From Hyphomonadaceae bacterium (lineage in GTDB: Bacteria; Pseudomonadota; Alphaproteobacteria; Caulobacterales; Hyphomonadaceae), in the NCBI GenBank assembly GCA_947474455.1, contig CANJIL010000005.1, positions 1 to 64,000 of the forward strand: a stretch of 64,000 bases of DNA, read 5' to 3'. The notes beneath the pieces were generated by a model. The model did no database searches, was not told the origin of the DNA, and was given only the letters and a program-made list of their open reading frames with translations. Shown here in pieces: positions 509 to 34,533 of the stretch. A program made the translations under genes and the position numbers. Positions within the stretch are counted from its first letter, which is position 1, and the number at the start of each line of letters is the position of its first letter.

Positions 509-535
509 GGGCCGCAAAGCCTTACTGACCCAACA

Positions 536-572
536 AAAGGGGCCGTCTCCGCCGCAGGGCGGGGCGGCCTTT
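536..572 (+). terminator. Probable Rho-independent terminator after flagellin 1
   Basis: An interrupted GC-rich hairpin follows the first flagellin stop by about 30 bases: AAAGGGGCCG-TCT-CCGCC, a short loop, then GGGCGG-GG-CGGCCTTT. Outer arms AAAGG..CCG pair with CGGCCTTT and inner CCGCC pairs with GGCGG, ending in a short T run. It separates the two flagellin genes. Confidence 0.55.
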
Positions 573-687
573 GCACATAAGACTGCGCGTAAGTCCGCGG
601 CGGAAACCATCCGTTAACGTCTACTAACGAAGACTGACCGCGAATTGACGATTCGTTCACCACGTTTCGTCCGCGGAGACGGCCAAA

Positions 688-1524: not shown

Positions 1525-1527
1525 GCG

Positions 1528-2199
1528 GTGATGCTCAGCGAGATCCAGTTCGAACAGGCGGTCGCAGCCTTCGTGACGTTCTTCGTCTTGATCGATGCAC
1601 CCGGTGTTGCCCCGATCTTTGCCTCCCTGACAGCGCCGGGCGGCTCGGCCTATGCGCGCAGGATGGCGATCAGGTCTGTCTTCGTTGCGGCGCTGATCCT
1701 GTTCTTCTTCGCCTTCGCGGGCGTCTGGCTGCTCGAGCATCTCGGCATTTCGCTGGACGCCTTTCGCGTCGCAGGTGGCGTGCTGTTGTTCCTGATCGCG
1801 CTGGAGATGGTGTTCGAGAAGCGCCAGGCGCGGCAGAAGACCCGCGCAGATCAGGTTCTGGCTGATGAGGAGGCTTCTGGCCGCCTTGATGACGTCTCCG
1901 TCTTCCCGTTGGCCATCCCGATGATTGCGGGGCCGGGCTCAATTGCGACGGCCATGCTCTACATGCAGAATGCCGGGGGCGATCCGGTCGGCATCAGCAT
2001 TGTCTCCTTCGCCATTGGGGCGAATCTCGTTCTTGCTGGCCTGATCTTCCTTGTGGCCGTGCCGCTGCTGAAGGTCATGGGCGACCAGATTGCCGGCGCG
2101 ATCACGCGCATCTTTGGCGTGATCCTCTCCGCGCTTGCCGTGCAGATGATAATCGTCGGGACTATTGGCGCATTCGGTCTGCAGATTCCCGCAGCCTGA
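1528..2199 (+). CDS. MarC family integral membrane protein
   Basis: 223-residue polytopic inner-membrane protein of the MarC/NAAT family; several members were once linked to multidrug resistance but the family function is unproven. Six hydrophobic segments are visible (about residues 10-30, 48-70, 78-95, 125-145, 155-178, 190-215) and the family signature FPLAIPMIAGPGSIAT lies near residues 125-140. Start could be GTG 1528 or the ATG immediately after it at 1531. It begins four bases after the flagellin stop and ends two bases from the convergent gene at 2202, so packing is tight but there is no clear functional link with flagella. Confidence 0.88.
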   Translation: MMLSEIQFEQAVAAFVTFFVLIDAPGVAPIFASLTAPGGSAYARRMAIRSVFVAALILFFFAFAGVWLLEHLGISLDAFRVAGGVLLFLIALEMVFEKRQARQKTRADQVLADEEASGRLDDVSVFPLAIPMIAGPGSIATAMLYMQNAGGDPVGISIVSFAIGANLVLAGLIFLVAVPLLKVMGDQIAGAITRIFGVILSALAVQMIIVGTIGAFGLQIPAA

Positions 2200-2201
2200 A
2201 C

Positions 2202-3485
2202 TCAGCTCGCGGCCGAATAATCGTCCATGAGATAGACGGCGCTGACTTTCTTCGGCTTGTCGCGCGTGACCGATTTCCACAGCACAGAAACCGCCACAAT
2301 CGCCAGCAGGGCGAGGCAGGCGAGGAGGCCAGCCACCTGCATGCGCAGGGCGTTGGTCCACGTCACAGTGGTGCGGGCGGTTTCGAGCAGGTTCTCGCCG
2401 TCGTAGTCGGCCAGCGGCACGACCCGGTCTCCGCCCGCGCGTGCGACCAGCTGGGCGCGATTCACGTCCGCGCGGTCCTTGATGCGGCTGATGATGGCGA
2501 CGGCGGATTCATCCGAAGTGTCCTGCGCGATCTCGCGCAGGATGCGGAATTCGGCAAGCAGCGGCTCAAGCTTCGCCTTGTCGATCGTGGTTTTGAACAC
2601 GCGCGCCACGACTTCGGCATTCTTGGGGGTGAAGCCGACTTCGTTCTGTAATTCGGCGGCAAGCAGACGCTTCATTTCCGCGACCGGAACGACGTCCTCG
2701 ATCCGGTTCTGCAGATAGAGCTTGAAGGGAACGACGCCTTCCTTGCGGGTGAGGAAGGTCGAAATCGCAACCGACGCGCCGGCGCGGGCTTCCGGATCCG
2801 CCAGGATCAGGCCGATGCCGGAGAGAAGGAAGGAGGTGACGTCGGTATGGTCGTCATTGGCCCAGCCGACTGCGGTGCGGGTGTGCTGGGGCAGGTCGCC
2901 CAGCCGGTTCAGCTCGACACGGGAGTCACCCTCGCGCGCGACGGCCAGCGCAGCCGAGCCGGGGGTTGTCGCAACGGCAGGGACTGCGCCCGGAACGGCG
3001 GAAGCCGGTGCGGATGCCGTGAAAATGGACTGCAGCGCGGTCGTGCGGCGGTCGTATTCGTCCTGCAGGTCTTCCGGCAGATAGGCGACCGCAGCGTCAA
3101 TCAGGGCTTCCTCGCCCGCGCCATCGGCGACGGCGATGCGCGCGCGCAGGGCTTCGCCGTCCTTGCCATCGAGCATGGCTGGCGCGCCAAGCAGCAGGCC
3201 TCGCACCCGGCGCATTTCCTTTTCCTCGAGAGAGGTGCGGACCATCTCGGCCCACACTTCGCGCGAGGCCTTGTCTGGCCGCGTGGAAATCTCCAGGAAG
3301 CGCGTGTCCATCGCCTGCCGCGTGGCGGTTATGGCTTCGGGGGTCGCCTGATAGGCAGGACGCTTGTTGCCATAGGCCGTCGACATGACGTGCGAGGCCA
3401 GGAAGGGCGTTACACAGATGGCTGCGTTGAAGATGAGGGCGGCATAAGCCGCGAACGGCAACCGGCGCTTACGACGGCGATTCAT
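2202..3485 (-). CDS. Hypothetical protein with N- and C-terminal membrane helices
   Basis: 427 residues if it starts at the ATG at 3485 (MNRRRKRRLPFAAYAA), chosen because the basic start followed directly by a hydrophobic helix looks like a true N-terminus; an upstream in-frame extension of 19 codons has no such character. One helix lies near residues 10-30 and another near 380-403 (MQVAGLLACLALLAIVAVS), leaving a large, helical, mostly soluble domain of about 350 residues between them, presumably periplasmic, and a short basic cytoplasmic tail. I do not recognise the family. It lies 195 bases downstream of flbY on the same strand and might be cotranscribed with the flagellar genes, but no motif supports a flagellar role. 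Confidence 0.75.
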   Translation of the reverse strand: MNRRRKRRLPFAAYAALIFNAAICVTPFLASHVMSTAYGNKRPAYQATPEAITATRQAMDTRFLEISTRPDKASREVWAEMVRTSLEEKEMRRVRGLLLGAPAMLDGKDGEALRARIAVADGAGEEALIDAAVAYLPEDLQDEYDRRTTALQSIFTASAPASAVPGAVPAVATTPGSAALAVAREGDSRVELNRLGDLPQHTRTAVGWANDDHTDVTSFLLSGIGLILADPEARAGASVAISTFLTRKEGVVPFKLYLQNRIEDVVPVAEMKRLLAAELQNEVGFTPKNAEVVARVFKTTIDKAKLEPLLAEFRILREIAQDTSDESAVAIISRIKDRADVNRAQLVARAGGDRVVPLADYDGENLLETARTTVTWTNALRMQVAGLLACLALLAIVAVSVLWKSVTRDKPKKVSAVYLMDDYSAAS

Positions 3486-3679
3486 CGAGCCCGCTTCCGT
3501 ATCAATATGTGGCCGCACAGGGCGTACCGCCCATCCGTCCACTTACGCGCCCCAGCTTAGGCATCCTTTGTTTTCCGGGAGGCCCGATAGATCAAGTGGG
3601 CAAGGCGCCTCTTATCGAAAAAAACACATAACCGATTTGTCATGCGATGCTTTCGCGTAGATTACGAAACAAGCGCAAA

Positions 3680-4120
3680 TTACGCCTTGGCGTCCACGGC
3701 AATGCCGGAGGCTTCTCGCCGGACCGTCGCATTCACGGTCCCTGTGCGGCCATAACCGGCAGGGGCGCTGTGAGAGGAGGCAATCTCTGTGGCGATCGAA
3801 CGCACCAGACCTTCGGTCACCGTCTTTGTCGCCATCAGAGCCTGGGCGTGGGCTTCGAGATTCTGCTCCAGATCCGTGGCGGCCTGGCGCAGGCTTGCCT
3901 TGAGGTCCGGCGAAATGCCGTCCAGCAGGGCTGGTTCGTTCTTCACCTTGGAGACTTCGATTCGCCAGGTGTGGACCAGGCGCTCTTTCTCGTTCCAGTC
4001 GGCCGAAAGCGAGTTCAGCTTGCGTGCTTTCACGACCCCGATTTCCGTCGCCACCAAAGCGACGAGGCGCTGCGTCATGGCCAACAGGTGAGTGGCGCGC
4101 TCGGTGGAATCGGCAGTCAT
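3680..4120 (-). CDS. flbY: FlbY-like flagellar protein (FlgN-type helical)
   Basis: 146-residue, largely alpha-helical protein occupying the position of flbY in the Caulobacter flgI-cheL-flbY operon. The N-terminal two thirds (residues 1-115) look like a long amphipathic hairpin as in FlgN-type export chaperones, followed by a flexible Ala/Gly tail. Its ATG overlaps the stop of cheL (ATGA, 4117-4120), showing translational coupling. The identification rests on gene order, size and fold character rather than a diagnostic motif. The likely role is a cytoplasmic assembly factor or chaperone for hook/rod proteins. Confidence 0.65.
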   Translation of the reverse strand: MTADSTERATHLLAMTQRLVALVATEIGVVKARKLNSLSADWNEKERLVHTWRIEVSKVKNEPALLDGISPDLKASLRQAATDLEQNLEAHAQALMATKTVTEGLVRSIATEIASSHSAPAGYGRTGTVNATVRREASGIAVDAKA

Positions 4121-4440
4121 TCGAGCCCCTGGAGCCGGAGGATTTCCTTGAGAACGGTGTCGGAAATACCGATGCCGCCGCCCCGCGCGATGGCGTCGGC
4201 GTATTGGTCGACCAGCATCGGCCGGAAGGTGGCCTCGGCGTTGCCGCCGCCTGTGGGGCCATCTGTCTCGAGCCCCTGGAACATCGGAGCAAGCATTTCG
4301 GCGATGAACATGCGCTCGAATTGCTGCGCGACTTCCTTGGCCTGAGCGCGGGTCTTCACGCCCGACACATCGGTCGAAAGCCCGGCCTTCGTCCGTGACA
4401 AAACATCGACCGGTGGGGAGGCGAGGGCGATGTCCGGCAT
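4117..4440 (-). CDS. cheL: CheL / FlgJ N-terminal-type rod-binding protein
   Basis: 107 residues matching the rod-binding domain found at the N-terminus of FlgJ (the scaffold for rod assembly), without the C-terminal muramidase domain. The diagnostic run AQQFERMFIAEMLAPMFQGL lies near residues 37-56, followed by a Gly-rich stretch and the conserved tail in which ARGGGIGISD (about 84-93) precedes the final helix. In Caulobacter the corresponding short protein is CheL. It sits one base downstream of flgI and overlaps flbY by four bases, so flgI-cheL-flbY is one operon. Confidence 0.8.
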   Translation of the reverse strand: MPDIALASPPVDVLSRTKAGLSTDVSGVKTRAQAKEVAQQFERMFIAEMLAPMFQGLETDGPTGGGNAEATFRPMLVDQYADAIARGGGIGISDTVLKEILRLQGLE

Positions 4441-4441
4441 C

Positions 4442-5551
4442 TTACATCACCTCGATCTCGGCCTGCAGCGCGCCGGATGTCTTCAGCGCCTGCAGGATGA
4501 CGATGAGATCGCGTGGGGATACGCCGAGCGCATTGAGCCCGGTGACCAGCTCGCGCAGCGGCACGCCGTTGCCGCCGACCATGGCCAGCTTGGCCACGTC
4601 TTCGGCGACGGCGATGTTCGACTGCGGCACCAGGACGGGGGGAGCGTTGGTGAAGGAGTTGGGCATGGCGACGCCCGGCGTCTCCTGCACCTGGATCGTC
4701 AGGTTGCCCTGCGCAATGGCGACCTTGGATACGCGCACATTCTCGCCCATCACGATGACGCCCGTGGTCTCGTTGATGACGATGCGGGCGCGCTGCTCGG
4801 GCTCGATCTCAAGGCTCTCGATCTGCGCGATAAGAGCGGACATGTCGCGGAAGCCTGCGGGCCGGCGCAGGCGCACTGTAGCGAGATCCGAGGCGACGGC
4901 TGCATCGACGCCGAGGAAGGTGTTGATCGCCCCGGCAATGCGGGACGCCGTGGTGAAGTCGGGATTGCGCAGCGCCAGCCGCAACTCGGTCTGCGCCGAG
5001 ATGTCGAAGCGGAGTTCGCGTTCGATCGTGGCGCCGTTGGGCACGCGTCCATTGGTGGGGATGTTGCGCGTGAGCGACGATCCCGAATTGCCGCCGGCGG
5101 TGAAGGCGCCTACAGCCACAGAGCCTTGCGCCAGTGCATAGGCCTGGCTGTCGGCGCCAATCATCGGCGTCGCCAGCAGTGTGCCGCCTTCGAGGCTCTT
5201 CGCATCGCACATGGTCGACACCGTAACGTCGATGCGTGAGCCGTTGGTGGCGAAGGGGGGCAGGTTGGCGGTCACCATCACAGCGGCGACGTTCTTGGTG
5301 TTGACGGTCGAGTCGCGCGTATTGATGCCCAGCCGTTCCAGCATGGATTCGAGGCCCTGCTGAAGCATCGGGCAGTTGCGGATCGAATCGCCCGTGCCGT
5401 TCAGGCCGAACACGATGCCGTAGCCGGTAAGTTGGTTGTCCCGCACGCCTTCGATGTCGATGATGTCTTTCAGGCGCGTGCCGGCGGCCACAGGCGCGGC
5501 GAGCGCGAGGACGGCAAACAGACAGGACAGAGTGCGGGCGAGTACGCGCAT
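4442..5551 (-). CDS. flgI: Flagellar P-ring protein FlgI
   Basis: Periplasmic P-ring subunit that assembles around the rod in the peptidoglycan layer. 369 residues from the ATG at 5551, which starts a clean signal peptide (MRVLARTLSCLFAVLALAAP) with likely cleavage near residue 23; further upstream in-frame codons have no signal-peptide character. Family motifs are present: RLKDIIDIEGVRDNQLTGYG after the signal peptide, GLNGTGD, and the C-terminal ALGVSPRDLIVILQALK. The stop is one base from cheL. The divergent fliX and the CtrA box at 5674-5688 share the upstream region, so flgI is probably in the same cell-cycle-controlled circuit. Confidence 0.95.
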   Translation of the reverse strand: MRVLARTLSCLFAVLALAAPVAAGTRLKDIIDIEGVRDNQLTGYGIVFGLNGTGDSIRNCPMLQQGLESMLERLGINTRDSTVNTKNVAAVMVTANLPPFATNGSRIDVTVSTMCDAKSLEGGTLLATPMIGADSQAYALAQGSVAVGAFTAGGNSGSSLTRNIPTNGRVPNGATIERELRFDISAQTELRLALRNPDFTTASRIAGAINTFLGVDAAVASDLATVRLRRPAGFRDMSALIAQIESLEIEPEQRARIVINETTGVIVMGENVRVSKVAIAQGNLTIQVQETPGVAMPNSFTNAPPVLVPQSNIAVAEDVAKLAMVGGNGVPLRELVTGLNALGVSPRDLIVILQALKTSGALQAEIEVM

Positions 5552-5673
5552 GAAATCCCAGGAGACGGGTGACGGAGATATTCCGACCGTTCTGGCCGCA
5601 GCGTTCTTCAGTGCAGTTTCGCCCCGCAATCCGCAACAAAGCCTTAAGCGTGGTTTCCCGCGGAGAAACTTTC

Positions 5674-5688
5674 TTAAGCCGCTATTAA
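5674..5688. promoter_or_regulatory. Perfect CtrA-binding box (TTAA-N7-TTAA)
   Basis: The sequence TTAAGCCGCTATTAA matches the full CtrA consensus TTAA-N7-TTAA with no mismatch. It lies about 40 bases upstream of the fliX ATG and about 125 bases upstream of the divergent flgI ATG. In Caulobacter, early flagellar genes including fliX are activated by phosphorylated CtrA from such boxes, so the position fits a class II flagellar promoter. The half-sites form a palindrome-like arrangement that could serve either direction. Confidence 0.75.
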
Positions 5689-5727
5689 CCAACCCGGCCA
5701 AATCTGCCGGGCAGGAGACGTGCTGAG

Positions 5728-6162
5728 ATGAAGGTCAGTTCCACCTCGTCCACATCCGCGTCCGCTGGAAGCAGCGGAGCCAAACCCGCCGCTGACGGCT
5801 TCAGCCGTCTGCTGGCGGCCGATGGTGCAGCGCCTCGCGGGCCCGCAGCTACTGTCTCGGCGGCGGCTGGCGTAGCGGGAATTTCCGCGCTGATGGCGCT
5901 TCAGGGAGTGGGCGGTCCCGAGGCGCGCGCCCGTGCGCTGCGCAAGGGGCGTCGGCTGCTCGACGCGCTCGATCGGCTGCAGCTTGCCATGCTTGGCGAA
6001 GGTCCCTCGCAGCGTCACCTCGCCCTGCTCAAGGGCGCGCTCTCCGAAGAGCGCCAGGCCACGGGCGACATCGGCCTCGACGACACGCTCAACTGGGCGG
6101 AAGTGCGTGCAGCCGTGGAGGCGGCCAAGCTTGAACGCGGGTCCGAGCCCGGGCCGGTCTGA
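5728..6162 (+). CDS. fliX: Flagellar assembly regulator FliX
   Basis: FliX couples completion of the early flagellar basal body to the activity of the sigma-54 activator FlbD in Caulobacterales. The product is 144 residues, matching family length, with a disordered Ser/Gly/Ala-rich N-terminus (residues 1-45), then a conserved helical core with ALRKGRRLLDALDRLQLAML near 70-89, and a short acidic C-terminal helix. It is divergent from flgI, exactly as in Caulobacter, and preceded by a perfect CtrA box. The gene order plus core motif make this assignment strong. Confidence 0.88.
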   Translation: MKVSSTSSTSASAGSSGAKPAADGFSRLLAADGAAPRGPAATVSAAAGVAGISALMALQGVGGPEARARALRKGRRLLDALDRLQLAMLGEGPSQRHLALLKGALSEERQATGDIGLDDTLNWAEVRAAVEAAKLERGSEPGPV

Positions 6163-6390
6163 TCTCGGGCTGTCTAACCAATGCTGCGCCGCGGCATCGC
6201 TCTATTGCGTGAGCGAATGCTCACAGTTTAAGCCTGCTAAACGGGAAATGTCAGAAAAGTGTAATAAATACAACGCCTCATAGGCGATTCCGGTGTGATC
6301 TGAGCCGTTTACGGGCTACCGCGGCTCATATATACAGCCCGCCCAGCTAAGGCGGCCCTGAGGATGGGCCGGCCTAGGGAGCAGACAGCG

Positions 6391-6804
6391 ATGAGTTCCA
6401 AGACGGCCACCTACAAGCCGACCGAGAACGAGCCCTATATGAGCAAGAAGCAGCTCAAATACTTCAAGGAAAAGCTGACCGCCTGGAAGGAGGAGATCCT
6501 TCAGGGCAATCGCGAGACAATTTCCGGCATGCAGGAAAACGTGGCGCCAATTCCGGACCTCGTTGACCGTGCTTCCTCAGAAGCCGACCGCGCCTTGGAG
6601 CTCCGTACGCGCGACCGCGAGCGCAAGCTGATAAACAAGATCGACGCGGCGCTACGTCGGATCGAGATGGGCGAATACGGCTATTGCGAAGAGACCGGCG
6701 AGCCGATCGGCGTGAAGCGCCTCGACGCCCGCCCGATCGCCACGCTCTGCCTTGAGGCGCAGGAACGCCACGAGCGCAAGGAACGCACGATCCGGGACGA
6801 CTGA
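6391..6804 (+). CDS. dksA: RNA polymerase-binding transcription factor DksA
   Basis: Secondary-channel regulator of RNA polymerase that acts with ppGpp. 137 residues from ATG 6391, the first start with full homology; a further upstream in-frame ATG at 6364 adds nine unrelated residues. A coiled-coil hairpin occupies residues 20-100 (DRASSEADRALELRTRDRER), followed by the C-terminal zinc-finger-like region GYCEETGEPIGVKRLDARP and ATLCLEA. Only two of the four canonical zinc cysteines remain (CxxT…CxxA), the arrangement of zinc-independent DksA variants. It follows the flagellar genes but has its own 228-base upstream region. Confidence 0.93.
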   Translation: MSSKTATYKPTENEPYMSKKQLKYFKEKLTAWKEEILQGNRETISGMQENVAPIPDLVDRASSEADRALELRTRDRERKLINKIDAALRRIEMGEYGYCEETGEPIGVKRLDARPIATLCLEAQERHERKERTIRDD

Positions 6805-7002
6805 TCCTAGCTTTTCGCCGCCGCCAGCGCACAGCAGCCGGGCGGCATGCCGCCGGGCGCAATCTGCAACGTTTGGCGAATCCTATAGGTGTCCTGATTC
6901 CTCCGAGAGATCGAAGGAGCCGGTTTGCTGTCGGATTACATAGAGTGTGGACTCGACGGGCAAAGCCACAACAGCCAGGGCAAGGTGCACGCATCACGCC
7001 TA

Positions 7003-7544
7003 CTAGGCGCCCGCCGGGCAATGATAGTTGGCGCAGGCGATGAAGCCGAGCGCAACGGCGATGCCGCTCGCCGATATCCCGTCCATGCCAAGCGGGCGCA
7101 ACGCGACGAATACCGCCGCGCTGACGATTGCGGGCGTGATGTAGAGCTCTCGCCGCAGCAGGATCGATGGCGCGCCCGCGAGTACGACGCGGATGACGCC
7201 GCCGGCCCTGTCAGCGACAGCGCTGCAGCTGCACCTACGCAGGTGTAGATGCGCACTCCCGCCGCATCGAGCCACAGCAGCGTCTTTCGTGCACTTCGCG
7301 CCCCGCGCCAGGCGGATGGGCGCGGCCACGGCCGAACACTCGATCACCTAGCCGGGATCGAGCACGCAGAAGAATGGCGTATTGATCAGCAGGTCGCCCA
7401 GCGTGCCTCCGCCCACGCCCGTGACGGCCGCGAGCACGATGAACATCAAACGTCCTGGCGCTTCTGGGCGGCCATGCAGGCGCCGGACCCGGCGAATGTC
7501 CCAACGCGCGCACAATCGCGCTCAGAAAGAAGACTGATCTTCAT
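7003..7544 (-). pseudogene. Degraded TRIC/YicG-type cation channel gene
   Basis: On the minus strand, scattered segments in different frames together reconstruct a TRIC-family (UPF0126) membrane protein. From the N-terminus: VGTFAGSGACMAAQKRQDV in one frame, then after a shift at about 7447 FIVLAAVTGVGGGTLGDLL ending in an in-frame TAG at 7348-7350, then LWLDAAGVRIYTCVGAAAAL in a third frame (about 7250), then GGVIRVVLAGAPSILLRREL and the C-terminal helices up to the TAG at 7003. The paired Gly-rich motifs (GGGTLxD and GGVIRxVL) are characteristic. At least three frame changes and one stop mean the gene is dead. The central helix between 7255 and 7350 is also poorly preserved. Confidence 0.75.
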
Positions 7545-7649
7545 GCCCGACACACGGCGCAAATCGGCGGTCTGTGCAACGGCGGCCTGGCCGCAAAACC
7601 GCGGGTCTTGAACAAGCGCCGCGAGTCGTGATTCTGCGCGGGAGGCATC

Positions 7650-8162
7650 GTGGAGTTGCAGATGGAAATCATTTCGAACGGGGCGGATGCAGGGCTCTAT
7701 TGGTCCGAACTTGCGCGCAATTGGGCGTCGGCCTTCACCTTCGTCGCGGCTTTGCTCGCCGGCATTTTCGGTCTGTTCCGTTATCTGCGATCGGAGCGGA
7801 TGCGCCAGACGGAGCAGGTGCGCGAACTCTACCGCATGTTCTTCGAATCGGACCGCTATCGCCGTATCCGTTTCGTGCTCGCCAATCCGGGCTCGCCCGA
7901 GTTCGCCGCGCTGCGCACCGAGCTCTCGACGCCGGGCATGCCGCAGGCCCTCGAAGGCGAGCTCATCGACCTGCTCAACTTCTTCGAGTTTGTCTCCGGC
8001 CTTACCCGGCGCGGCCTTGTCGCCAAGCGCGATATCGACTGGATGTTCGCCAGCTTCATCAGCCGTGTCGTGGCGGTCGATTTCGTGCGTGCTTACGTCC
8101 TGCGCTCGGACTTCGAGGAGCTGCAGGATGCAGCGCGCGCTGCGGATAGAAGGAAGAAGTGA
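7650..8162 (+). CDS. Hypothetical membrane-anchored protein
   Basis: 170 residues from GTG 7650, chosen because GGGAGG lies six bases upstream; an ATG at 7662 is the alternative. One transmembrane helix near residues 25-47 (WASAFTFVAALLAGIFGLF) is followed by a helical cytoplasmic domain rich in aromatic and charged residues (RELYRMFFESDRYRRIRFVL). The layout resembles small DUF4760-like one-helix proteins, but no family can be asserted. It sits alone between a dead channel gene and recR. Confidence 0.7.
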   Translation: MELQMEIISNGADAGLYWSELARNWASAFTFVAALLAGIFGLFRYLRSERMRQTEQVRELYRMFFESDRYRRIRFVLANPGSPEFAALRTELSTPGMPQALEGELIDLLNFFEFVSGLTRRGLVAKRDIDWMFASFISRVVAVDFVRAYVLRSDFEELQDAARAADRRKK

Positions 8163-8552
8163 CTGCACGGATTTTCGTCAGCGGCTCGCAGCGTTCCGAC
8201 GCCCCGTCCGGCTTCGCGGGAAGCTGCGCACGTCAAAGCCATTCTTGAGACTGGCGCGGCGCGCAAGGCCGGACAAGTATTCAGGGGCGTCTTTATGCTC
8301 CGTCCAGGTATCGGGCCTTTGCGCCCGTGGGCGAGTAAGGGGTGAGATCTGGCGCATCCGGGACATGATGTTTCTCGTCCGGCTCGACCGCTGTCAGCGC
8401 GGGGCTTATATCCGTGAGCGGGGGCCGGTCTTGCGCGATGATGGCCGCCGGGTGACTTGCCGGGTGTATCGTTACGTGAGCGCGCTGCTGGGTGTACCTG
8501 TCACCGCCTCGGCCGACTATGTCCAGTGGATGAAAGTGAACAGACGCAACAC
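8163..8552. other. 390-base stretch upstream of recR, no assured gene
   Basis: No dnaX or ybaB, the usual upstream partners of recR, is present here, and the conserved loop of the SRP (4.5S) RNA was not found. The only coding candidate is the short ORF at 8365-8556, listed separately. The rest shows no recognisable protein or RNA. Confidence 0.4.
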
Positions 8553-8556
8553 ATGA
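8365..8556 (+). CDS. Possible small ORF translationally coupled to recR
   Basis: A 63-codon ORF ([20 protein letters not shown]…) whose stop overlaps the recR start in an ATGA arrangement at 8553-8556. The overlap is typical of coupled genes, and the CCGGGA before the ATG could act as a weak ribosome site. The product has no recognised family and high Arg content, so it could equally be a chance open frame in GC-rich DNA. Confidence 0.25.
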
Positions 8557-9152
8557 TCAATCGTTCGGCCGGTCCTGAAATCCTCCGCCTGATCGACTTG
8601 TTGTCGAAGCTGCCGGGCCTCGGGCCGCGTTCCGCCCGCCGCGCCGCGCTGCACCTGCTCAAGCGGCGCGACCAGCTTCTCAGCCCGCTGGCGGCGGCGC
8701 TGGCGGACGCTGCTGCAAAAGTCCAGATCTGCCGGCTCTGCGCGAACTTCGACACCGTGAACCCATGCTCGGTCTGCGCTGCACCAGGACGGGACAATTC
8801 GGTGATTTGCGCGGTCGAGGAGGTGGGGGATCTCTGGGCGATGGAGCGCTCCGGCGTCTTCCGGGGGCGCTATCACGTGGTCGGTGGAACCCTGTCCGCA
8901 CTCGACGGCATCCGGCCGGAGGATCTCAACATCGCCGGGCTGGTGGAGCGCGCCGGCGCCACAGATGTGCGCGAAGTAATCCTGGCGCTGAACGCCACCG
9001 TGGACGGACAGACGACCGCCCACTACATCACAGACAGGCTGGCGCATCTGCCCGTGAGGGTGACACGCCTTGCTCATGGTGTGCCTGTGGGTGGGGAGCT
9101 CGATCACCTCGACGATGGCACGATCGCCGCTGCGATGGCGTCGAGACGATAG
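8553..9152 (+). CDS. recR: Recombination mediator protein RecR
   Basis: RecR acts with RecO (and RecF) to load RecA onto SSB-coated DNA during gap repair. 199 residues from ATG 8553, the family length. In order: helix-hairpin-helix with [19 protein letters not shown] (about 17-35), the C4 zinc motif [16 protein letters not shown] (about 57-72), and the Toprim domain with [18 protein letters not shown] (84-101) and [15 protein letters not shown]. Upstream in-frame codons to 8457 lack homology. ybaB and dnaX are not adjacent, unlike in many proteobacteria. Confidence 0.95.
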
Positions 9153-9173
9153 AAACGACGGCTGGAAGGTCCA

Positions 9174-9422
9174 ATGGTGAAACGCAAACAGGCGCCAATA
9201 GTGCTTACGGTGGCCGCCGTGGGTCTGGGCGTGGGTATCGGCATGTGGCTGATGCGCGAGCACATCAGGTCAATCGCAGGCAGCGTGCGCGACAACGCCC
9301 ACCGCGCGAACAACCCGCTGGACGTGTTCGGAACCGATGTTCCCGACAACGCCTTTGAGGGCGTCGCCAACTATCCGCATGTGCCGGAAGGCTGGCGTCC
9401 CAGGCGCGGCGCGCGGGACTGA
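9174..9422 (+). CDS. Small single-helix membrane protein
   Basis: 82 residues with a hydrophobic helix at about 8-27 (PIVLTVAAVGLGVGIGMWLM) and a hydrophilic remainder ending in HVPEGWRPRRGARD. It starts 21 bases after recR, preceded by GGAAGG, which supports real translation. No family recognised; function unknown. Confidence 0.6.
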   Translation: MVKRKQAPIVLTVAAVGLGVGIGMWLMREHIRSIAGSVRDNAHRANNPLDVFGTDVPDNAFEGVANYPHVPEGWRPRRGARD

Positions 9423-9491
9423 TTTTCTCTTATCGCTAGAATCGCGCGACCGTCCGACGCCTGCAGGTTGATCGGAACAAATAATGAACCT

Positions 9492-10901
9492 ATGGTCGCA
9501 AGCATGACACTTGATACGCTGCACATCGTCCTTCTGGTCATCGCGCTGGCTGCCGCCGCGGCAGCGCTTGTGTTCTCGCAGCGCAAGCCGCCAGACACGG
9601 CGCACCTGTCTGCAGAGCTTGCGGAGCGTGGGCGGGAAGTCGCGGCGCTGAAGAGCGAGCGCGACAGCCTGCGCCAGCGCGCCGAGGCGGCTGAAAGGGC
9701 GCATGCAGCAGACGGCGCCAAGATGGCTGAGCGTGACGCCAGCATGGTGCGCGAACGCGAGCAGCTCGCGAAGATGCAGGCCGAGAGCGAAGCCCGCTTC
9801 AAGTCGCTGGCCGACGCCGCCTTGCTGAAGTCGCAGCAGCAGTTCGTGCAGATCGCCGACGAAACGCTGAAGAAGCACAAGGAAGGCGCCGAGGGCGAAC
9901 TCGGAAAGATGCTGAAGCCGATCTCGGAAACGTTCGGCCAGTTCCAGAAGAAGGTCGATGAGATCCAGAAGATCAGCGCGGAAGACCGCGCCAAGCTGGA
10001 AGAACAAATCCGCGGCGTCAGCGAGAGCGTGCGCAAGACGGAAAGCGCGGCCGGCAAGCTCGCCAGCGCGCTGTCCACCACACGGCATGGCGGCCGATGG
10101 GGGGAGGAGACGCTTCGCAACGTACTGGAGATGTCAGGCCTGTCGCCTTACGCCGACTTCACCGAGCAGAATTCGTCCGAGACTGACAAGGGCCGTATCC
10201 GGCCTGATGTGATTGTGCGCATGCCGGGTGGGCGCGAACTGGTGATTGATTCCAAGGTCTCGCTGGATGACTATCTGGCAGCCTCGAACGAGATCGATCC
10301 GGCGAAGCGTCAGGCTTTCCTCGCCGCTCACGCCGCCAAGGTCCGCGCCCATGTCACAAGCCTTGCCCGCAAGGACTACTGGAAGGGCTTTTCGGACCGC
10401 GTCGATTTCGTCGCCATGTTCATGCCCGGCGAGAATTTCTACGCCGCCGTGCTCGAGCATGACCGGGAGATTTTCGACTTCGCGGCCAAGAACAGCGTAA
10501 TCATCGTGACGCCCTCGACGCTGATCGCCCTCGCCAAGGCGGTCGCCTATGGCTGGCGCCAGGAACAGGCTGCACACAACGCCGAGCAGGCGGTGGAACT
10601 TGGGCGGGAGCTTTACCAGCGCCTGTCTGTGATGACCGAGCACATGTCCAAGGTCGGCTCCAACCTCGACAAGGCGGTCGACAGCTACAACTCGCTGGTC
10701 GGCTCCTATGAACGTAAAGTGATGCCGCAGGTCCGCCGCTTCGAGGACTTGCAGATCCCCACAGAAGACAGGGCCGTCGAAGCTCCGGCCGAACTGGGGG
10801 TGAAGGCGCGGACGCCGCAGCCCCAGATAGCGGAGGTGAAGTCCGAAACGCCGTTGCTGGACGCCTTGCAGCCGCAGGCCGCCGGGGGTAAGCGCAAATA
10901 G
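9492..10901 (+). CDS. rmuC: DNA recombination protein RmuC
   Basis: RmuC family protein, a nuclease-like factor that limits recombination at inverted repeats. About 469 residues. Architecture: N-terminal membrane helix (residues 8-28), a long coiled coil (about 35-205) with many Glu/Lys/Gln, then the RmuC domain with STTRHGGRWGEETLRNVLEM (about 196-215), RPDVIVRMPGGRELVIDSKV (about 235-254) and YWKGFSDRVDFVAMFMPGE. The true start is uncertain: ATG 9492 or ATG 9504 both fit, and neither has a strong ribosome site; a TTG at 9468 seems too far upstream. Confidence 0.9.
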   Translation: MVASMTLDTLHIVLLVIALAAAAAALVFSQRKPPDTAHLSAELAERGREVAALKSERDSLRQRAEAAERAHAADGAKMAERDASMVREREQLAKMQAESEARFKSLADAALLKSQQQFVQIADETLKKHKEGAEGELGKMLKPISETFGQFQKKVDEIQKISAEDRAKLEEQIRGVSESVRKTESAAGKLASALSTTRHGGRWGEETLRNVLEMSGLSPYADFTEQNSSETDKGRIRPDVIVRMPGGRELVIDSKVSLDDYLAASNEIDPAKRQAFLAAHAAKVRAHVTSLARKDYWKGFSDRVDFVAMFMPGENFYAAVLEHDREIFDFAAKNSVIIVTPSTLIALAKAVAYGWRQEQAAHNAEQAVELGRELYQRLSVMTEHMSKVGSNLDKAVDSYNSLVGSYERKVMPQVRRFEDLQIPTEDRAVEAPAELGVKARTPQPQIAEVKSETPLLDALQPQAAGGKRK

Positions 10902-28664: not shown

Positions 28665-29180
28665 ATGCCCCACATCACAGCAGAGCAGGGCGACATCAAC
28701 CGCACGAAGGTCGAGGCCATCGTAAACGCCGCCAATTCCCCCTGCTGGGCGGCGGCGGGGTCGATGGCGCAATCCATCGCGCGGCCGGCCCCGGCCTCCT
28801 GGCCGAATGCCGCGCGCTTGGCGGCTGTCCCACCGGCGAGGCGCGCATCACCGGCGCCTACAATCTCCCGCATCGCCACGTGATCCACACGGTCGGCCCC
28901 ATCTGGCGCGGTGGAAGCGAGGGCGAGGGGGGCGTGCTGGCGAACTGTTACCGAAATTCATTGCAACTGGGGGTCGAGCATGCCTGCCGCTCGGTTGCCT
29001 TTCCCTCCATCTCCACCGGCGCCTATGGCTACCCGCTTCCCGCAGCCGCCGAGATTGCCGTGCGGTCCGCTCGCGAATTTCTCGCGGGCGAAGACTTCGC
29101 GCCTGACGTGCTGTTCTGTTGCTTCAGCGCGGATGCGCTCGCAATCTGCCGCGCCGTGCTCGGCAAGCAACGCCAGTCAA
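28665..29180 (+). pseudogene. Broken macrodomain (ADP-ribose deacetylase-type) gene
   Basis: Divergent from purL. The 5' part from ATG 28665 reads [20 protein letters not shown] in one frame; after a one-base loss at about 28737-28742 the macrodomain continues in another frame with [28 protein letters not shown], and [13 protein letters not shown], all diagnostic of O-acetyl-ADP-ribose deacetylases. The catalytic Asn-Ala-Asn and the GGGG-V-D loop are split by the shift. No stop occurs at the normal end near 29180: the frame runs on to 29941, antisense to the pseudouridine synthase. Dead gene, or one-base sequencing error with a lost stop. Confidence 0.75.
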
Positions 29181-29950
29181 ATCCCGCCGCCAGCGGCCGC
29201 CACCAATGCCGCACGCTCTGCATCCGTCAGATGGCGCCATTTGCCTTCGGGCAGCTCGCCGAGCAGCAGCGGGCCAATACGCACACGGACAAGATCCGCA
29301 ACGTCGAGATCGACCAGCTCGCACATCCTGCGGATCTGCCGGTTGCGCCCTTCCGTCAGCACGAAGCGCAGCACCTGCATGTCTTCCAGCGTCACCTTCG
29401 CAGGCTTCAGCTGCCGCCCATCAAGCTCCAGGCCATGACGAAGCTTCTGGATCTTCGCGCGATCCACCTTGCCCTTCACCGTGACGATGTACTCCTTGTC
29501 GATCGGCGATTCAGGGCCGATCAGCGCCTTCGCCAGAACGCCGTCTTCCGACAGCAACAGCAGCCCCCGACTGTCCTGGTCCAGTCGCCCCAATGGGGGG
29601 AGGCTCGCGCGCGAACTTGGCGCAATGCCCAGGCCGACCTGGTTCTCCGCTGTCAGCAGCCGCGCGGCGGGAATCTGCCCCGGATCAGGCTGGGCCGACA
29701 CAATCCCCGCCGGCTTGTTGATCATGACCGAGATCTGCGCCGCGAGCCCCAGTTCGGCGCGGTCGTTCAGCACCAGCGTCTGCCCCGCCGCGATCTTGCG
29801 GCCGACATCGGTCACGCGTTCGCCATCTATCAACACCGCGCCGGCGGCAATCAGCTCCTCCGCCTCTCGCCGCGAACACACGCCCGATTGCGCCAGCCAT
29901 TTGTTGACGCGCTGGGGCTCCTCGCCATCGTATGTGCGTGACCAGCTCAA
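29177..29950 (-). CDS. 23S rRNA pseudouridine synthase, RluB/RluF family
   Basis: 257 residues with N-terminal S4 RNA-binding domain (about 12-60; [20 protein letters not shown]) and RsuA-type synthase domain (about 75-240). The catalytic Asp is in [14 protein letters not shown] (about 120-133), with [12 protein letters not shown] before it and [14 protein letters not shown] after. No ATG is present in frame at the front; TTG 29950 is the likely start, 11 bases after the cinA-like stop. The 3' end overlaps the decayed macrodomain gene. The target uridine cannot be fixed by eye. Confidence 0.88.
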
Positions 29951-29960
29951 CTGTTCGTTC

Positions 29961-30734
29961 TCAATCCTTTGGATCGATCTCGGGCTTTACGCCCTGGGCC
30001 TTCACGAGTTCGATCAGCGCTTCCAGGCTTGCCGCAATAAGATCCGGATCGCGGCATCGCGCCACCAGGTTGACGCCGTACTCCATCGTCTTGCCATTAA
30101 GGCGCATGAACGGATAGGAGCCGAAGCTCACCTCCGGGCGGGCCTTAGCCAGCGCCCCAAGCGCATCGGCGATATCGCCTTCGCGCATTCCAACGCCACG
30201 CACCGTGTGCGCATAGACCACCGCCCCGCCGCGTATGCGATGCCCGACATCCTGCAGCATGCCCCGCATCACAGAGGGAATTCCCGCCATCACGAACACA
30301 TTGCCGATCAAGAACCCCGGCGCCGCCGACACGGGATTCTGGATCAGCTCCGCTCCCGCCGGGATGCGCGCCATCCGCATCCGCCCTTCGGTAAGGTCCT
30401 GGCCCCGCGCCTCATACCAGGGCTTCAGGATCGCCACGGCATCGGCCCGGACATCAATGGGTCGCCCGAACGCCGCCGCCACCGCATCGGCCGTAATGTC
30501 GTCGTGCGTCGGCCCGATGCCGCCGGTCGTAAACACATAATCGTGCCGGGTGCGTAGCACATCGACCGTCCGGACGATCGTATCGTGCACATCCGGGATC
30601 ACGCGCGCCTCGCGGACATCGACGCCCAACGGATGAAGAAACTCCGCGATCGTCTTCAGGTTTGAATCCTGCGTTCGTCCGGAGAGAAGCTCGTCTCCGA
30701 TGAGGATCACTGCAGCGGTTACTGTTCGGGCCAT
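29961..30734 (-). CDS. CinA-like molybdopterin-binding domain protein
   Basis: 257 residues consisting only of the N-terminal CinA/MoCF domain (COG1058); the C-terminal nicotinamide-nucleotide deamidase part is absent. Motifs: AVILIGDELLSGRTQDSN (about 8-25), FTTGGIGPTHDDITADAV (about 68-85) and an Ile/Gly-rich PVSAAPGFLIGNVFVMAG stretch. Similar stand-alone proteins may act as pyrophosphatases on nucleotide sugars or dinucleotides; here the substrate is unknown. It is cotranscribed with the pseudouridine synthase. Confidence 0.87.
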   Translation of the reverse strand: MARTVTAAVILIGDELLSGRTQDSNLKTIAEFLHPLGVDVREARVIPDVHDTIVRTVDVLRTRHDYVFTTGGIGPTHDDITADAVAAAFGRPIDVRADAVAILKPWYEARGQDLTEGRMRMARIPAGAELIQNPVSAAPGFLIGNVFVMAGIPSVMRGMLQDVGHRIRGGAVVYAHTVRGVGMREGDIADALGALAKARPEVSFGSYPFMRLNGKTMEYGVNLVARCRDPDLIAASLEALIELVKAQGVKPEIDPKD

Positions 30735-30884: not shown

Positions 30885-31403
30885 ATGAGGACGCACAAGC
30901 GCCTCTCCGGAGCGGAGGGCGGCAACGTGATGATCGAGTTCGCGCTTCTCGCGCCGGTGTTCTTCATGCTGGTGATGGGGCTGATCGAGTTCGTTCTCTA
31001 CCAGTACAAGACCTACGCGCTGAACCACATCGTCTATGAAGCGACGCGCAATCTCCAGACCGGGGAAGTCTGGAGCGCAGGAGACGCGGAAGCCAGGCGC
31101 GCCAAGTTCGACGAGATGTGCGCGGAATCGGCTGGCGCGCTGATGAACTGCGAAGAGGTCCAGTGGGACGTGCGCGCCTATGACGCGCTCAACGAGATCG
31201 AATACCCTCCTGTTGAGTACGACGAAGACGGTCTGCCGACCAACTTCGTGTTCGAGCCGGGAGACGCCAACCAGTATTCGGTCGTGCGCGCTTCCATCCA
31301 CCACGAGTTCATCACGCCATTCATGGCTGAGCTGTTCCGGATGGGACCAGATCAACCCGCGATCGTGAACAGCTTCTGCATCGTCAGAAACGAGCCGTGG
31401 TGA
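30885..31403 (+). CDS. TadE-like pseudopilin
   Basis: 172 residues; the N-terminal TadE signature GGNVMIEFALLAPVFFMLVM (about 11-30) has the Gly-x-x-x-x-Glu pattern of pseudopilin processing followed by the hydrophobic helix, and the rest is a small periplasmic domain with paired Cys. Processed by a prepilin peptidase (not in this window) and thought to aid assembly of Tad/Flp pili. First gene of a three-gene operon; the stop overlaps the next start region by seven bases (31397-31403). Confidence 0.85.
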   Translation: MRTHKRLSGAEGGNVMIEFALLAPVFFMLVMGLIEFVLYQYKTYALNHIVYEATRNLQTGEVWSAGDAEARRAKFDEMCAESAGALMNCEEVQWDVRAYDALNEIEYPPVEYDEDGLPTNFVFEPGDANQYSVVRASIHHEFITPFMAELFRMGPDQPAIVNSFCIVRNEPW

Positions 31404-31987
31404 ACATGCGCATCTCCTCCTTCATGCCGCGCGTGTTTCGCGACGTTCGCGGCGTCGCCGCCGCCGAATTCGCGCTGATCGCGCCCGCTCTTATCTTTTT
31501 GGTTATGGGCGTGCTCGAAATGTCGTTCCGCTTCAGGGCCGCGGAAGAGGCGACGCGCTACGTTCACCAGATCGCCGACCTCGTCTCGCGCGACGCCAGC
31601 CTTACGACTGAATCGCTGGAGGAGATGCGCCATGCGGCGACCTTCATGATGGCGCCGGTCGACACGAGCGACAGTATCGACCTCGACGTTTCCTCGATCG
31701 GCTTCACGGGCGTCGATGCAACGCCCGCATTCCTGTGGCGCCGCGTTGCTGGAACCCCGGTTGCGTTCAACGTCGAAGACGCCGAAGGCATGGGCCTTGA
31801 AGACGAGTCGGTTATTCGCGTCGGCGTTCGTTACAATTACCAGTCCACCCTGTCAGACCTGTTTGGCGGCGGCTTCATGGCGATCGAACGGTCCGCCTAT
31901 GCCCGCCCGCGCGTCGAGCGGCTTGTTGAGCTTGACGGCGTAACCGACGACGGCGGGGCAGTCGCATATTTCGATACTGCAGAGTGA
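31397..31987 (+). CDS. TadE/TadF-like pseudopilin
   Basis: 196 residues with a second TadE-type signature, RGVAAAEFALIAPALIFLVM (about 15-34), in which Glu is at position +5 of the mature protein, and a beta-rich periplasmic domain. The pair TadE plus TadF followed by TadG is the usual arrangement for Flp pilus minor components. Overlap with both neighbours indicates translational coupling. Start GTG 31397 or ATG 31403 is possible. Confidence 0.83.
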   Translation: MVNMRISSFMPRVFRDVRGVAAAEFALIAPALIFLVMGVLEMSFRFRAAEEATRYVHQIADLVSRDASLTTESLEEMRHAATFMMAPVDTSDSIDLDVSSIGFTGVDATPAFLWRRVAGTPVAFNVEDAEGMGLEDESVIRVGVRYNYQSTLSDLFGGGFMAIERSAYARPRVERLVELDGVTDDGGAVAYFDTAE

Positions 31988-32040
31988 TTTCTAGCGGGCA
32001 GGGCGCGCAGAATCGCGCCGTACGAAAAATGGGAACGGCC

Positions 32041-34533
32041 ATGTTCAGGTCAATCGGCAAATTCGCTGCGAATACCAGAGGCGCCTTCGCCATGCAGTTT
32101 GCGCTGCTGGCGATCCCGCTGACGGTCTGCACGGGCCTCGCCATCGACGGCGGCCGCGCCTTCCTCGCACGCTTCGAACTCGCTTCGGCGCTGGACGCCG
32201 CGGCTTTGGCTGTTGGCTCGACCCTGCAGAATGACGCTGACCTCGACGCCATCGCGGCGAAGTTCGTCAACAGCAACTTCCGGACAGAGCACGCCACGCC
32301 GATCGAACTCGAACTCGTCCCCGGGGCGGAGGACTCGCTGACCCTCAAGGGGAATGTGACGATCAGCACGTTCTTCATGCCGATCATCGGGCAGCCTTAC
32401 GTAACCGTGGCGGCCGAAAGCGAAGTGCGGCACGGCGGCAGCAACGTTGAGGTCGCGCTTGTGCTCGACATCACGGGCTCGATGAACGCGACACGCATGG
32501 CTGGGCTCACCAGCGCCGCCAAGATCCTGATTGATAAGGTCGTGAACACCGTCCAGACGCCGTTCTTCTCCAAGATCGCCATCACGCCCTGGTCGCAGAG
32601 CGTTTATCTGGGCTCGACGCACGTGAATGCAGGCGTTGTCGAGGAGCTGCGCGGCACGCTGACAGGCTCTACCTCGATCTCCGCCGCCGGGTGGCGCAAT
32701 GGCTCGACAACCACCAAGACGATCAGCGAGGCGGGCTGGCGCACGACCGCCGGAGCCAAGACCATCGCCAACGCGGGCGCAAACGGCGCCGGCGGGATCG
32801 ACTGGCGGTGGGGCCCTTCCCGTAACATTACGGGCTTCGCCAAGGTCACCAGCAGCACGAGGATCCAGGTAACCACGAGCGCCAACCACGGCTATTCGAA
32901 CGGCGAGTTCGTCCGCTTCACCGGCATCACGACGGGCAGCTACACGGCTCTGAACAACAACATCTATCGGGTCGCGGACAAGACCAACACCACCTTCAAC
33001 CTCAGAAATATCGCGGATACGGCCTACATCACGCCGCCCGCGGGTAGCACGTCCTCGACCGGCGCCTCGCAGCGCTGCCATGACAGCGCCTGCAATGTCG
33101 GCATTACCACGACCTCGGCCTTCACGGGGCTCGCCGCGGGCGACTTCGTGAACATCACTGGCACGAGCGGCTTCCCGGGAACTCAAACGCCGAACGCTAT
33201 CAACAACTCGGCGACAACCACCTGGGTGGTGGCCAACGTGCCGTCGACCACGCGCTTCACGCTGGCGAACTGGAACGGCCCCAACTTCGGCGCGACGATG
33301 AACTCGGGCGGCGGAACCGTTTCCGAATGCCTTGTTTCCGATTGCCGCTATCGCGTCACGACCTCGGCCGCCCACAGCTTCGCCGCCACGGACTACGTCT
33401 ACATTTGGGGCATGACCGAAACCGGCAGCGGCACGAACGGCAACAGCGACGCAAACACGACATGGAGCGTTTCCAGCCCGTCCGGATCGGTTTTCTACCT
33501 GCCTGGCAACGGTAAAAACTACAAGGACTGGTCCTCGGGCGGTTCGGCCGCGGAATGCGCGCTGGCGACTTGCAATGTGCAGATCACGTCGGCGTCTCAT
33601 GGCCTCGCGGTGGATGCGCGCGTCGAGATCAAGGGCGCCACGGGACTGACCGGCATCAATACCTGCGCGCTGTCGAGTTCGGGTCAGTGCAGTTCGGGCA
33701 GCAATCTCGTGTGGCGTATTTCGGCGGTGGCCGGCAACGTCCTCACGCTTGCCGACACCAGCCCCGCCCTGTCCAACATGTCGGGCGCATACGGCTCCGG
33801 CGGCACGCTTCAATGCACCACCTACGGCTGCAATCGCCTCTGGTTCACCAACGGGAGCGGCAGCGAGCGTGTCTACCGGCCGAGCGAGTGCCTGGTCGAG
33901 CGCTATGGCGAGAACGCTTACACGGATGTCGATCCGGCTGACGCGCCGCTTGGCATTCTGTACACGGGCGATGGAACTTGCATAACGGACAACTACGCAA
34001 CGCCGCTCACCGCCGACAAGGCGCGCCTCAACACCGCGATCGACGATCTGCAAACCGGCGGCTCCACGGCGGGGCAGCTTGGCATGGCATGGGGATGGTA
34101 CATGCTGTCGCCCAACTTCGCGAGCATCTGGGACAAGGAAGCGGTCAACCAGCCGATGCCCTATGCGACGCCCCTACTGGCCAAGGTTGTCGTTCTGATG
34201 ACCGATGGTGAGTTCAACTTCGCCACTTGCAGCGGCGTTTCCTCGGGTACGATAAACTCAAGCATCTGCGTCCCTGACGACGCCGGGGATACCACGGCTT
34301 CCAAGCATGCCGCATTCAAGCAGGCCGAAGCGTTTTGCACCGCGATGAAGGAGCAGAACATCATCATCTACACGGTCGGCCTCGAACTCAACACCGCGCT
34401 CTACAGCGACGACTTCCTGCTGGGGTGCGCCTCCAGCCCGGAGCACGCCTTCCTGGCGGACGACAACGCCGAACTCGAGGATGCCTTCAAGGACATCGCC
34501 ACATCGATCTCACGCCTGCGTATTTCCAAATAG
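32041..34533 (+). CDS. TadG-like von Willebrand A protein with four tandem modules
   Basis: 830 residues from ATG 32041, chosen because GGGAAC lies five bases upstream. N-terminal pseudopilin-like helix (about 12-36; GAFAMQFALLAIPLTVCTGL). A vWA domain starts near 138 with the MIDAS-type DITGSM (143-148), is interrupted by about 520 residues, and resumes with LLAKVVVLMTDGEFN (TDGE at about 721-724) and a C-terminal domain to 830. The insert holds four repeats of 76-86 residues (268-598), each ending in C-x4-C. Family role: secreted or envelope component of Tad/Flp pili or surface adhesion. The insert is unusual for TadG. Confidence 0.85.
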   Translation: MFRSIGKFAANTRGAFAMQFALLAIPLTVCTGLAIDGGRAFLARFELASALDAAALAVGSTLQNDADLDAIAAKFVNSNFRTEHATPIELELVPGAEDSLTLKGNVTISTFFMPIIGQPYVTVAAESEVRHGGSNVEVALVLDITGSMNATRMAGLTSAAKILIDKVVNTVQTPFFSKIAITPWSQSVYLGSTHVNAGVVEELRGTLTGSTSISAAGWRNGSTTTKTISEAGWRTTAGAKTIANAGANGAGGIDWRWGPSRNITGFAKVTSSTRIQVTTSANHGYSNGEFVRFTGITTGSYTALNNNIYRVADKTNTTFNLRNIADTAYITPPAGSTSSTGASQRCHDSACNVGITTTSAFTGLAAGDFVNITGTSGFPGTQTPNAINNSATTTWVVANVPSTTRFTLANWNGPNFGATMNSGGGTVSECLVSDCRYRVTTSAAHSFAATDYVYIWGMTETGSGTNGNSDANTTWSVSSPSGSVFYLPGNGKNYKDWSSGGSAAECALATCNVQITSASHGLAVDARVEIKGATGLTGINTCALSSSGQCSSGSNLVWRISAVAGNVLTLADTSPALSNMSGAYGSGGTLQCTTYGCNRLWFTNGSGSERVYRPSECLVERYGENAYTDVDPADAPLGILYTGDGTCITDNYATPLTADKARLNTAIDDLQTGGSTAGQLGMAWGWYMLSPNFASIWDKEAVNQPMPYATPLLAKVVVLMTDGEFNFATCSGVSSGTINSSICVPDDAGDTTASKHAAFKQAEAFCTAMKEQNIIIYTVGLELNTALYSDDFLLGCASSPEHAFLADDNAELEDAFKDIATSISRLRISK
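32842..33834 (+). repeat. Four tandem 76-86 aa beta-rich modules with C-x4-C ends
   Basis: Protein-level repeats in the TadG-like gene: units at 32842-33096, 33097-33348, 33349-33576 and 33577-33834 (85, 84, 76 and 86 codons). Each has an opening strand with TTSA or ITSA and, in most, a His-Gly or His-Ser (SANHGYS, SAAHSFA, SASHGLA), then a V-x-I/F-x-G turn, an Asn-rich loop before WxV or YRV, a F-x-L strand, a Gly-Gly stretch, and a Cys-x4-Cys-Asn/Arg end (RCHDSACN, ECLVSDCR, ECALATCN, QCTTYGCN). The pattern resembles FCCH-like beta modules found in phage structural proteins, by eye only. Confidence 0.7.

Follow-up and report, generated by a model that had tools for sequence, protein, structure and literature searches.

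Positions 1 to 64,000 of a Hyphomonadaceae contig (the window) encode a TadG-like protein with four cysteine-paired beta modules in the middle of its vWA domain. A preliminary description of this DNA regarded the arrangement as its strongest candidate for an undescribed system, which raises the question of what kind of protein this is and what its insert might do. We found that it is a minor pilin of the CpaL type and that its insert is a lengthened CpaL-type arm, a known part in a longer form and not a new system. The features on which this reading is based are collected in Table 1.

Table 1 Features of the TadE-TadE-TadG locus (positions in the window; residues of the TadG protein)
Feature	Position	Strand	Evidence
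TadE-like minor pilin 1	30885..31403	+	Pfam TadE 42.2 bits
TadE-like minor pilin 2	31406..31987	+	Pfam TadE 28.8 bits; overlaps upstream end of TadG open frame
TadG/CpaL-type minor pilin, 830 aa	32041..34533	+	Pfam Tad E 5e-8; orthology; AF2 model
Prepilin cleavage-type motif RG|AFAMQF and hydrophobic pilin helix, residues 13-60	32077..32220	+	Model helix 12-60; Pfam Tad 16-59
MIDAS motif 1, DITGSM (D143, T145, S147; residues 143-148)	32467..32484	+	>=90% conserved in 20 homologues
Strand-repeat segment, residues 206-261 (W1 212-224, W2 227-239, W3 240-258)	32656..32823	+	
FCCH-like module U1, residues 262-351, with own first strand A	32824..33093	+	E1_FCCH 28.7 bits, phrog_584; model strands 261-346
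C-x4-C pair 1, residues 346/351	33076-33093	+	
FCCH-like module U2, residues 351-435	33091..33345	+	Unit-profile match 64.8 bits
C-x4-C pair 2, residues 430/435	33328-33345	+	
FCCH-like module U3, residues 435-511	33343..33573	+	Unit-profile match 83.8 bits
C-x4-C pair 3, residues 506/511	33556-33573	+	
FCCH-like module U4, residues 511-597	33571..33831	+	Unit-profile match 59.5 bits
C-x4-C pair 4, residues 592/597	33814-33831	+	
vWA C-terminal half with MIDAS T676 (34066-34068) and D722 (34204-34206)	33832..34530	+	Homologues, Foldseek, profiles

Gene order and Tad machinery

A search of the whole genome with the TadE profile gave matches only at three adjacent genes, the two TadE-like minor pilins and TadG, the latter being the only minor pilin of the TadG/CpaL type in this genome. 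The order TadE1-TadE2-TadG was constant in the genus and was also found in relatives with zero or two modules; the first TadE-like gene kept its position in all ten genus relatives whose locus reached that far. The TadG reading frame is open across 31984-34533 and offers alternative starts at GTG 31984 and ATG 32029, with conserved orthology starting at ATG 32041 when compared with homologues. The nearest named relative of the protein, 67% identical over its length, came from a MAG labelled 'Hyphomonadaceae bacterium'. On the opposite strand, two genes at 29177-29950 and 29961-30734 presumably encode, as read from their sequence, an RNA pseudouridine synthase-like protein and a CinA/molybdopterin-binding-type protein.

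The pilus machinery is encoded on another contig (C4) of the same genome, where a near-complete cpa/tad cluster (L075, about 475-9570) groups CpaA, B, C, D, E and F next to a Flp pilin. It comprises a prepilin peptidase, RcpC/CpaB, a secretin with a CpaC N-domain, CpaD, a CpaE-like AAA protein, a T2SSE ATPase (CpaF) and a T2SSF platform protein. The TadG gene is thus accompanied in its genome by the Tad machinery and by small minor pilins, as expected for a TadG/CpaL-type protein. A second, short protein with only the CpaC N-terminal domain is encoded at 9130-9570 (+) of contig C4. Caulobacter vibrioides served as control genome and gave matches with E1_FCCH, TadE, Flp and CpaC alike.

A CpaL-type minor pilin with a split vWA domain

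The TadG-like identity proposed in the preliminary description was borne out by the pilin-type N-terminus, which matched Pfam Tad with 33.5 bits (cut-off 22.3). Pfam VWA scored 16.2 bits, under its 23.8-bit cut-off; the vWA identity is supported by Foldseek matches to vWA proteins and by profile matches to Mfa5. All five MIDAS residues (D143, T145, S147, T676 and D722) are present and conserved, T676 and D722 being invariant among 20 homologues. The full-length protein was modelled with AF2 (mean pLDDT 82.4, pTM 0.62), and a Foldseek search of the PDB with this model retrieved E1 enzymes as well as vWA proteins, Mfa5 and SpaC of pilus tips among them. In this model, the DITGSM strand (135-143), a helix (150-167) and a strand (177-184) precede the insert, and the other helices and strands of the vWA domain resume from about residue 654 after it. 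The units are accordingly placed by the model where they had been described, inside the vWA fold between DITGSM (143-148) and TDGE (721-724). The start then given to the insert lies too late, as the strand-repeat segment before the first unit (206-261) also belongs to it.

CpaL of Caulobacter crescentus consists of a pilin and a vWA domain in two parts, residues 148-203 and 384-626, which are separated by two beta-rich six-stranded barrels in tandem (PMC12607857, 2025). Because its insert occupies this very place, the TadG protein of the window is a CpaL-type minor pilin with a vWA domain split by four modules. Two earlier claims have therefore to be abandoned. The vWA domain was said to be normally continuous and the placement uncommon, yet the split is the rule in the CpaL-type subfamily and the published CpaL has two barrels there. 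The locus was also proposed to be an undescribed system, but CpaL shows the same placement and relatives with two modules are common in the order; for this two-module form, frequent homologues with the same insert, which the description itself had named as speaking against its proposal, do exist.

Tandem modules related to FCCH and phage tail domains

The four repeated units, each ending in C-x4-C followed by N or R, were readily confirmed, with four such motifs spaced by 84, 76 and 86 residues. Their internal similarity, on which the earlier proposal depended, is also real: each of the six comparisons between units outscored all 500 shuffles (z 5.0 to 11.9), and a profile derived from 57 units, taken from its relatives and from this protein itself, recovered four domains in it at 59-84 bits each.

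The proposed relationship of these modules with FCCH and phage tail domains was supported by several kinds of comparison. Pfam E1_FCCH (PF16190) matched 36 of the 57 single units (best 3e-12); in the TadG protein of the window it found U1, at 28.7 bits just below the cut-off of 29.5, in the orthologue L010 four stretches covering all four units (118.7 bits), and in the two-module relative L018 it reached 75.3 bits. Likewise, phrog_584, a family of phage major tail proteins, matched 19 of the 57 units. Searched against the PDB, the unit profile found the isolated FCCH domain of mouse Uba1 (2lzj/2v31, E 1.8e-4), other E1 enzymes and the phage tail protein gp15, and hhalign aligned the TadG modules with those of tail-type proteins of the same class (99.5% probability, E 7e-23); the Foldseek matches to E1 enzymes agree. 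Profile matches to BurrH were dismissed, as they reflected a short repeat and included no significant single stretch. The name FCCH refers to a resemblance of fold: the TadG protein is no E1 enzyme, and neither Pfam nor NCBIfam gave a match in it for the E1 adenylation (ThiF) or catalytic cysteine domains.

As its modules are clearly homologous to tail-type proteins of the class, the insert might be a recent phage-derived insertion devoid of function, namely a fragment of a tail-module gene caught in the vWA domain and drifting. We consider this highly improbable. Four modules, four cysteine pairs and an open frame are retained in almost every carrier within the genus and two modules occur in about one-fifth of the order, a conservation that contradicts a functionless insertion. 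A direct phage origin of this insert was also rejected: when 50,697 phage records were searched with it by tblastn, nothing matched at E 0.01, so the phage link is remote. No phage tail family matched the TadG protein over its whole length; a single module matches phrog_584 and the rest is pilin and vWA.

Cysteine pairs at the module junctions

The number of C-x4-C motifs equalled the number of modules in 42 of 42 module-bearing TadG entries (the window protein being counted twice). In a wider list, the exceptions were L071, with two modules and one pair, and the incomplete L012 and L015. The motif is absent from the phage-type relatives, and this combination of matching in TadG proteins and absence in phage-type ones appears to be undescribed. 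Only the two cysteines and one asparagine were near-invariant (>90%) in the 57 units; as these had been cut at the C-x4-C motifs, the invariance of the cysteines among them is no evidence, whereas the profile-based counts are.

In the AF2 model, the final strand of each module stops at the first cysteine, and the next module begins its first own strand at the second. Since the protein is exported and the organism encodes DsbB, a disulfide staple at each module junction is likely. The preliminary description had also suggested metal binding by the modules, for which we found no support: no conserved set of metal ligands was seen, and the known metal site is the MIDAS of the vWA domain. A zinc-type reading of C-x4-C is less likely than disulfides, given the ~80 residues between pairs, the periplasmic export and the presence of DsbB. 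A loop of U4 contains an additional pair (C-x7-C, residues 542 and 550; 33664-33690), shared only by L004 among the relatives looked at.

Distribution and history of the modules

Modules were present in 67 of 299 genomes and 11 of 54 genera of the order. Over these 299 genomes, with places read per open frame, no protein with more than two modules was found outside the genus of the window. Within the genus, 12 of 15 genomes have the four-module gene (one copy split over two contigs), and G009 also possesses a three-module paralogue with two strand repeats (L074; G009:C54, 1749-3959). The other carriers in the family have two modules per protein, and some TadG relatives (L019, L020, L024) have none. 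TadG proteins thus exist with 0, 2, 3 and 4 modules, and module number does not define the TadG/CpaL type. Outside the order we found mostly single modules for which the match ended short of the C-x4-C part of the profile; the proteins examined there were mostly of tail type and without the motif.

In a tree of 112 modules (80 columns, many forks unresolved), U2, U3 and U4 of the four-module proteins grouped with the second module of two-module proteins (support 90), separately from U1, which fell with or beside the first modules. The simplest reading of this tree is that growth from two to four modules would have proceeded by copying the second one.

Several genomes of the order carry at least two two-module TadG genes close together, as if tips had been duplicated (L013 in G049, L016 in G041, G308:C2 and G484:C59). 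Interrupted frames were seen in L004 (G012), with one TAG stop, and in L015 (G023), with pieces in different frames; they may be pseudogenes or assembly errors.

Strand repeats and module number

The first vWA part ends with a conserved RG, and the segment from there to module 1 contains strand repeats of 13 residues, of the type SISGATWRNGxxK, whose number equals the number of modules minus one across the relatives. In the two-module proteins (n=30) this segment measures 21-23 residues (22 in 26 of the 30) and contains one repeat, its tryptophan being absent in 3 of 30. The three-module protein has 35 residues and two repeats, and the four-module L010 and L011 have 48 residues and three repeats with tryptophans 13 residues apart. 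The other four-module proteins show short additions that bring the measured segment to 53-62 residues, lengths partly due to a later beginning of the profile match. No strand repeat is found in the protein without modules. In the TadG protein of the window W3 is degenerate, and the AF2 model places strands at 215-217, 226-232 and 240-242.

This coupling has a counterpart in the modules themselves. U2 to U4 start straight at C-x-V-x-V-T-S-x-x-H-G and lack the first strand that U1 possesses (SISGITKANPAVV) and that phage modules have too, and the strand repeats resemble precisely this strand of U1. Both observations would be explained by strand donation, and we infer that each later module gets its first strand from the rising chain, the fold and the assignment of strands being those predicted by the model. 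Such donation fits the 'six-stranded' description of both CpaL barrels, as the second would own only five strands. Because the two expansions flank U1 on opposite sides, one simple tandem duplication could not have produced the lengthening. The window protein and L002, the two proteins with a degenerate third repeat, share a small unique insertion in U2, which would agree with a pairing of W3 and U2, although it represents one event only.

Generalizing, the CpaL-type arm may be a length-adjustable two-way beta ladder with one 13-residue rising strand per added module; its length would shift in register only, through paired duplications flanking module 1, and lineages would set in this way the reach or the force response of the tip. 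We give this extension about even odds.

A proposed arm at the pilus tip

We propose, with a probability of roughly 60%, that TadG and the two adjacent TadE-like minor pilins form the tip complex of the Tad pilus built by the distant cpa cluster, with the vWA head, its MIDAS intact, contacting the surface and the insert forming a rigid arm. The chain would leave the vWA domain after its second strand, rise through the three 13-residue strand repeats, turn at the distal U1 and come back through U2, U3 and U4 into the vWA domain. Each later module, devoid of the first FCCH strand, would be completed by one rising strand, and a C-x4-C disulfide would staple each junction, so that the arm would keep its shape under retraction force. 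With four modules instead of two, its length would be roughly doubled. The tip location, adhesion and mechanical role are taken over, by analogy, from CpaL, the Kil tip complexes and PilB. This arm is preferred because of the register rule between repeats and modules, which derives from few independent events (one three-module paralogue and one four-module genus) and includes a degenerate third repeat in the window protein itself; in addition, the cysteine pairs could be structural and carry no load.

The modules might instead be the adhesive surface. Tandem FCCH-like domains would then bind a substrate, a higher copy number raising avidity or widening specificity, with the vWA domain as a mechanical hub. 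Within the genus, the modules are less conserved (45-52% identity) than the pilin part (69%) and the C-terminal half of the vWA domain (57%), as expected for a ligand-facing surface, and homologous modules occur in phage tail proteins. However, the lower conservation fits an adhesive face or a relaxed spacer alike, the strict coupling of strand repeats and modules points to a structural arm, and in Streptococcus sanguinis PilB the binding activity resides in the vWA domain (PMC8179133). We therefore regard adhesive modules as a rather unlikely explanation.

Still less probable, in our opinion, is that the insert acts as a plug or gauge, an enlarged head that would be blocked at the CpaC secretin, halt full retraction and set the surface-sensing signal, with module number tuning the stop. 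CpaL has been proposed to act via the secretin, and cells lacking cpaL resemble those in which retraction is blocked (PMC12607857). In keeping with this, the gene is missing in the two genomes without the CpaC N-domain (G002 and G014) and present in 12 of the 13 that have it, G001 (78% complete) having the domain and lacking the gene; the overlap in G002 and G014 would arise by chance with a probability of ~0.03 in a hypergeometric calculation that takes no account of relatedness. Nevertheless, co-occurrence with CpaC is expected for any Tad component and an elongated chain of modules is not obvious as a plug.

The structural arm remains our preferred reading, and its meaning goes beyond this locus, CpaL being a leading candidate for the surface sensor that Caulobacter uses via its pili. 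The CpaL-type insert gains a family (the FCCH/phage tail module), a length series of 0, 2, 3 and 4, and a disulfide-like pair per module. The counting rule predicts the folding topology of the insert, and the natural insert series makes the part of the arm in reach or force response testable. If the beta ladder is true, lineages would set the reach or force response of their Tad pilus tips by arm length. The FCCH/phage tail link, the length series and the register rule appear to be undescribed within the literature searched, as we found no paper joining 'FCCH' and 'pilus' and the beta-rich region of CpaL had no strong Dali match (PMC12607857), although such proteins may well carry a label from their Pfam match in automatic annotation already.

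Comparison with known systems

The closest described system is CpaL (CCNA_0199), which shares with the TadG protein of the window a pilin-like N-terminus, a five-residue MIDAS, a vWA domain split after its first part by tandem beta-barrels, a gene located outside the main pilus cluster and a proposed association with two small minor pilins in a tip complex. CpaL affects piliation and surface sensing: its deletion lowers piliation and sensitivity to phage phiCbK and increases holdfast production. Its tip position in Caulobacter is itself a prediction (PMC12607857). The two proteins are split at an equivalent place, by two modules in CpaL and by four in the window protein, which differs also in having its TadE-like partners adjacent to the gene and an insert that is FCCH/phage-tail-like by sequence.

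E1_FCCH of ubiquitin-activating enzymes resembles the modules in sequence profile and Foldseek comparisons, but the modules belong to an exported protein, end in C-x4-C and are not accompanied by E1 adenylation or catalytic domains. The phage tail families phrog_584 and phrog_376 contain the same module by profile comparison, without C-x4-C and as single or spaced copies, in contrast with the uninterrupted tandem in TadG. RrgA, GBS104, SpaC, Mfa5 and PilB are likewise pilus-associated vWA proteins, several of them with segments inserted in the vWA domain; they belong mostly to unrelated pilus systems, the arms described for them are built from something other than FCCH repeats, and ARM2 is located elsewhere in the fold. 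Finally, the Kil Tad pili of Myxococcus, with exchangeable tips, resemble the complex proposed here in having a tip of three TadE/F/G-like minor pilins, one of them large and modular, but KilN has another extra domain and a single genome encodes four alternative tips (PMC12075869).
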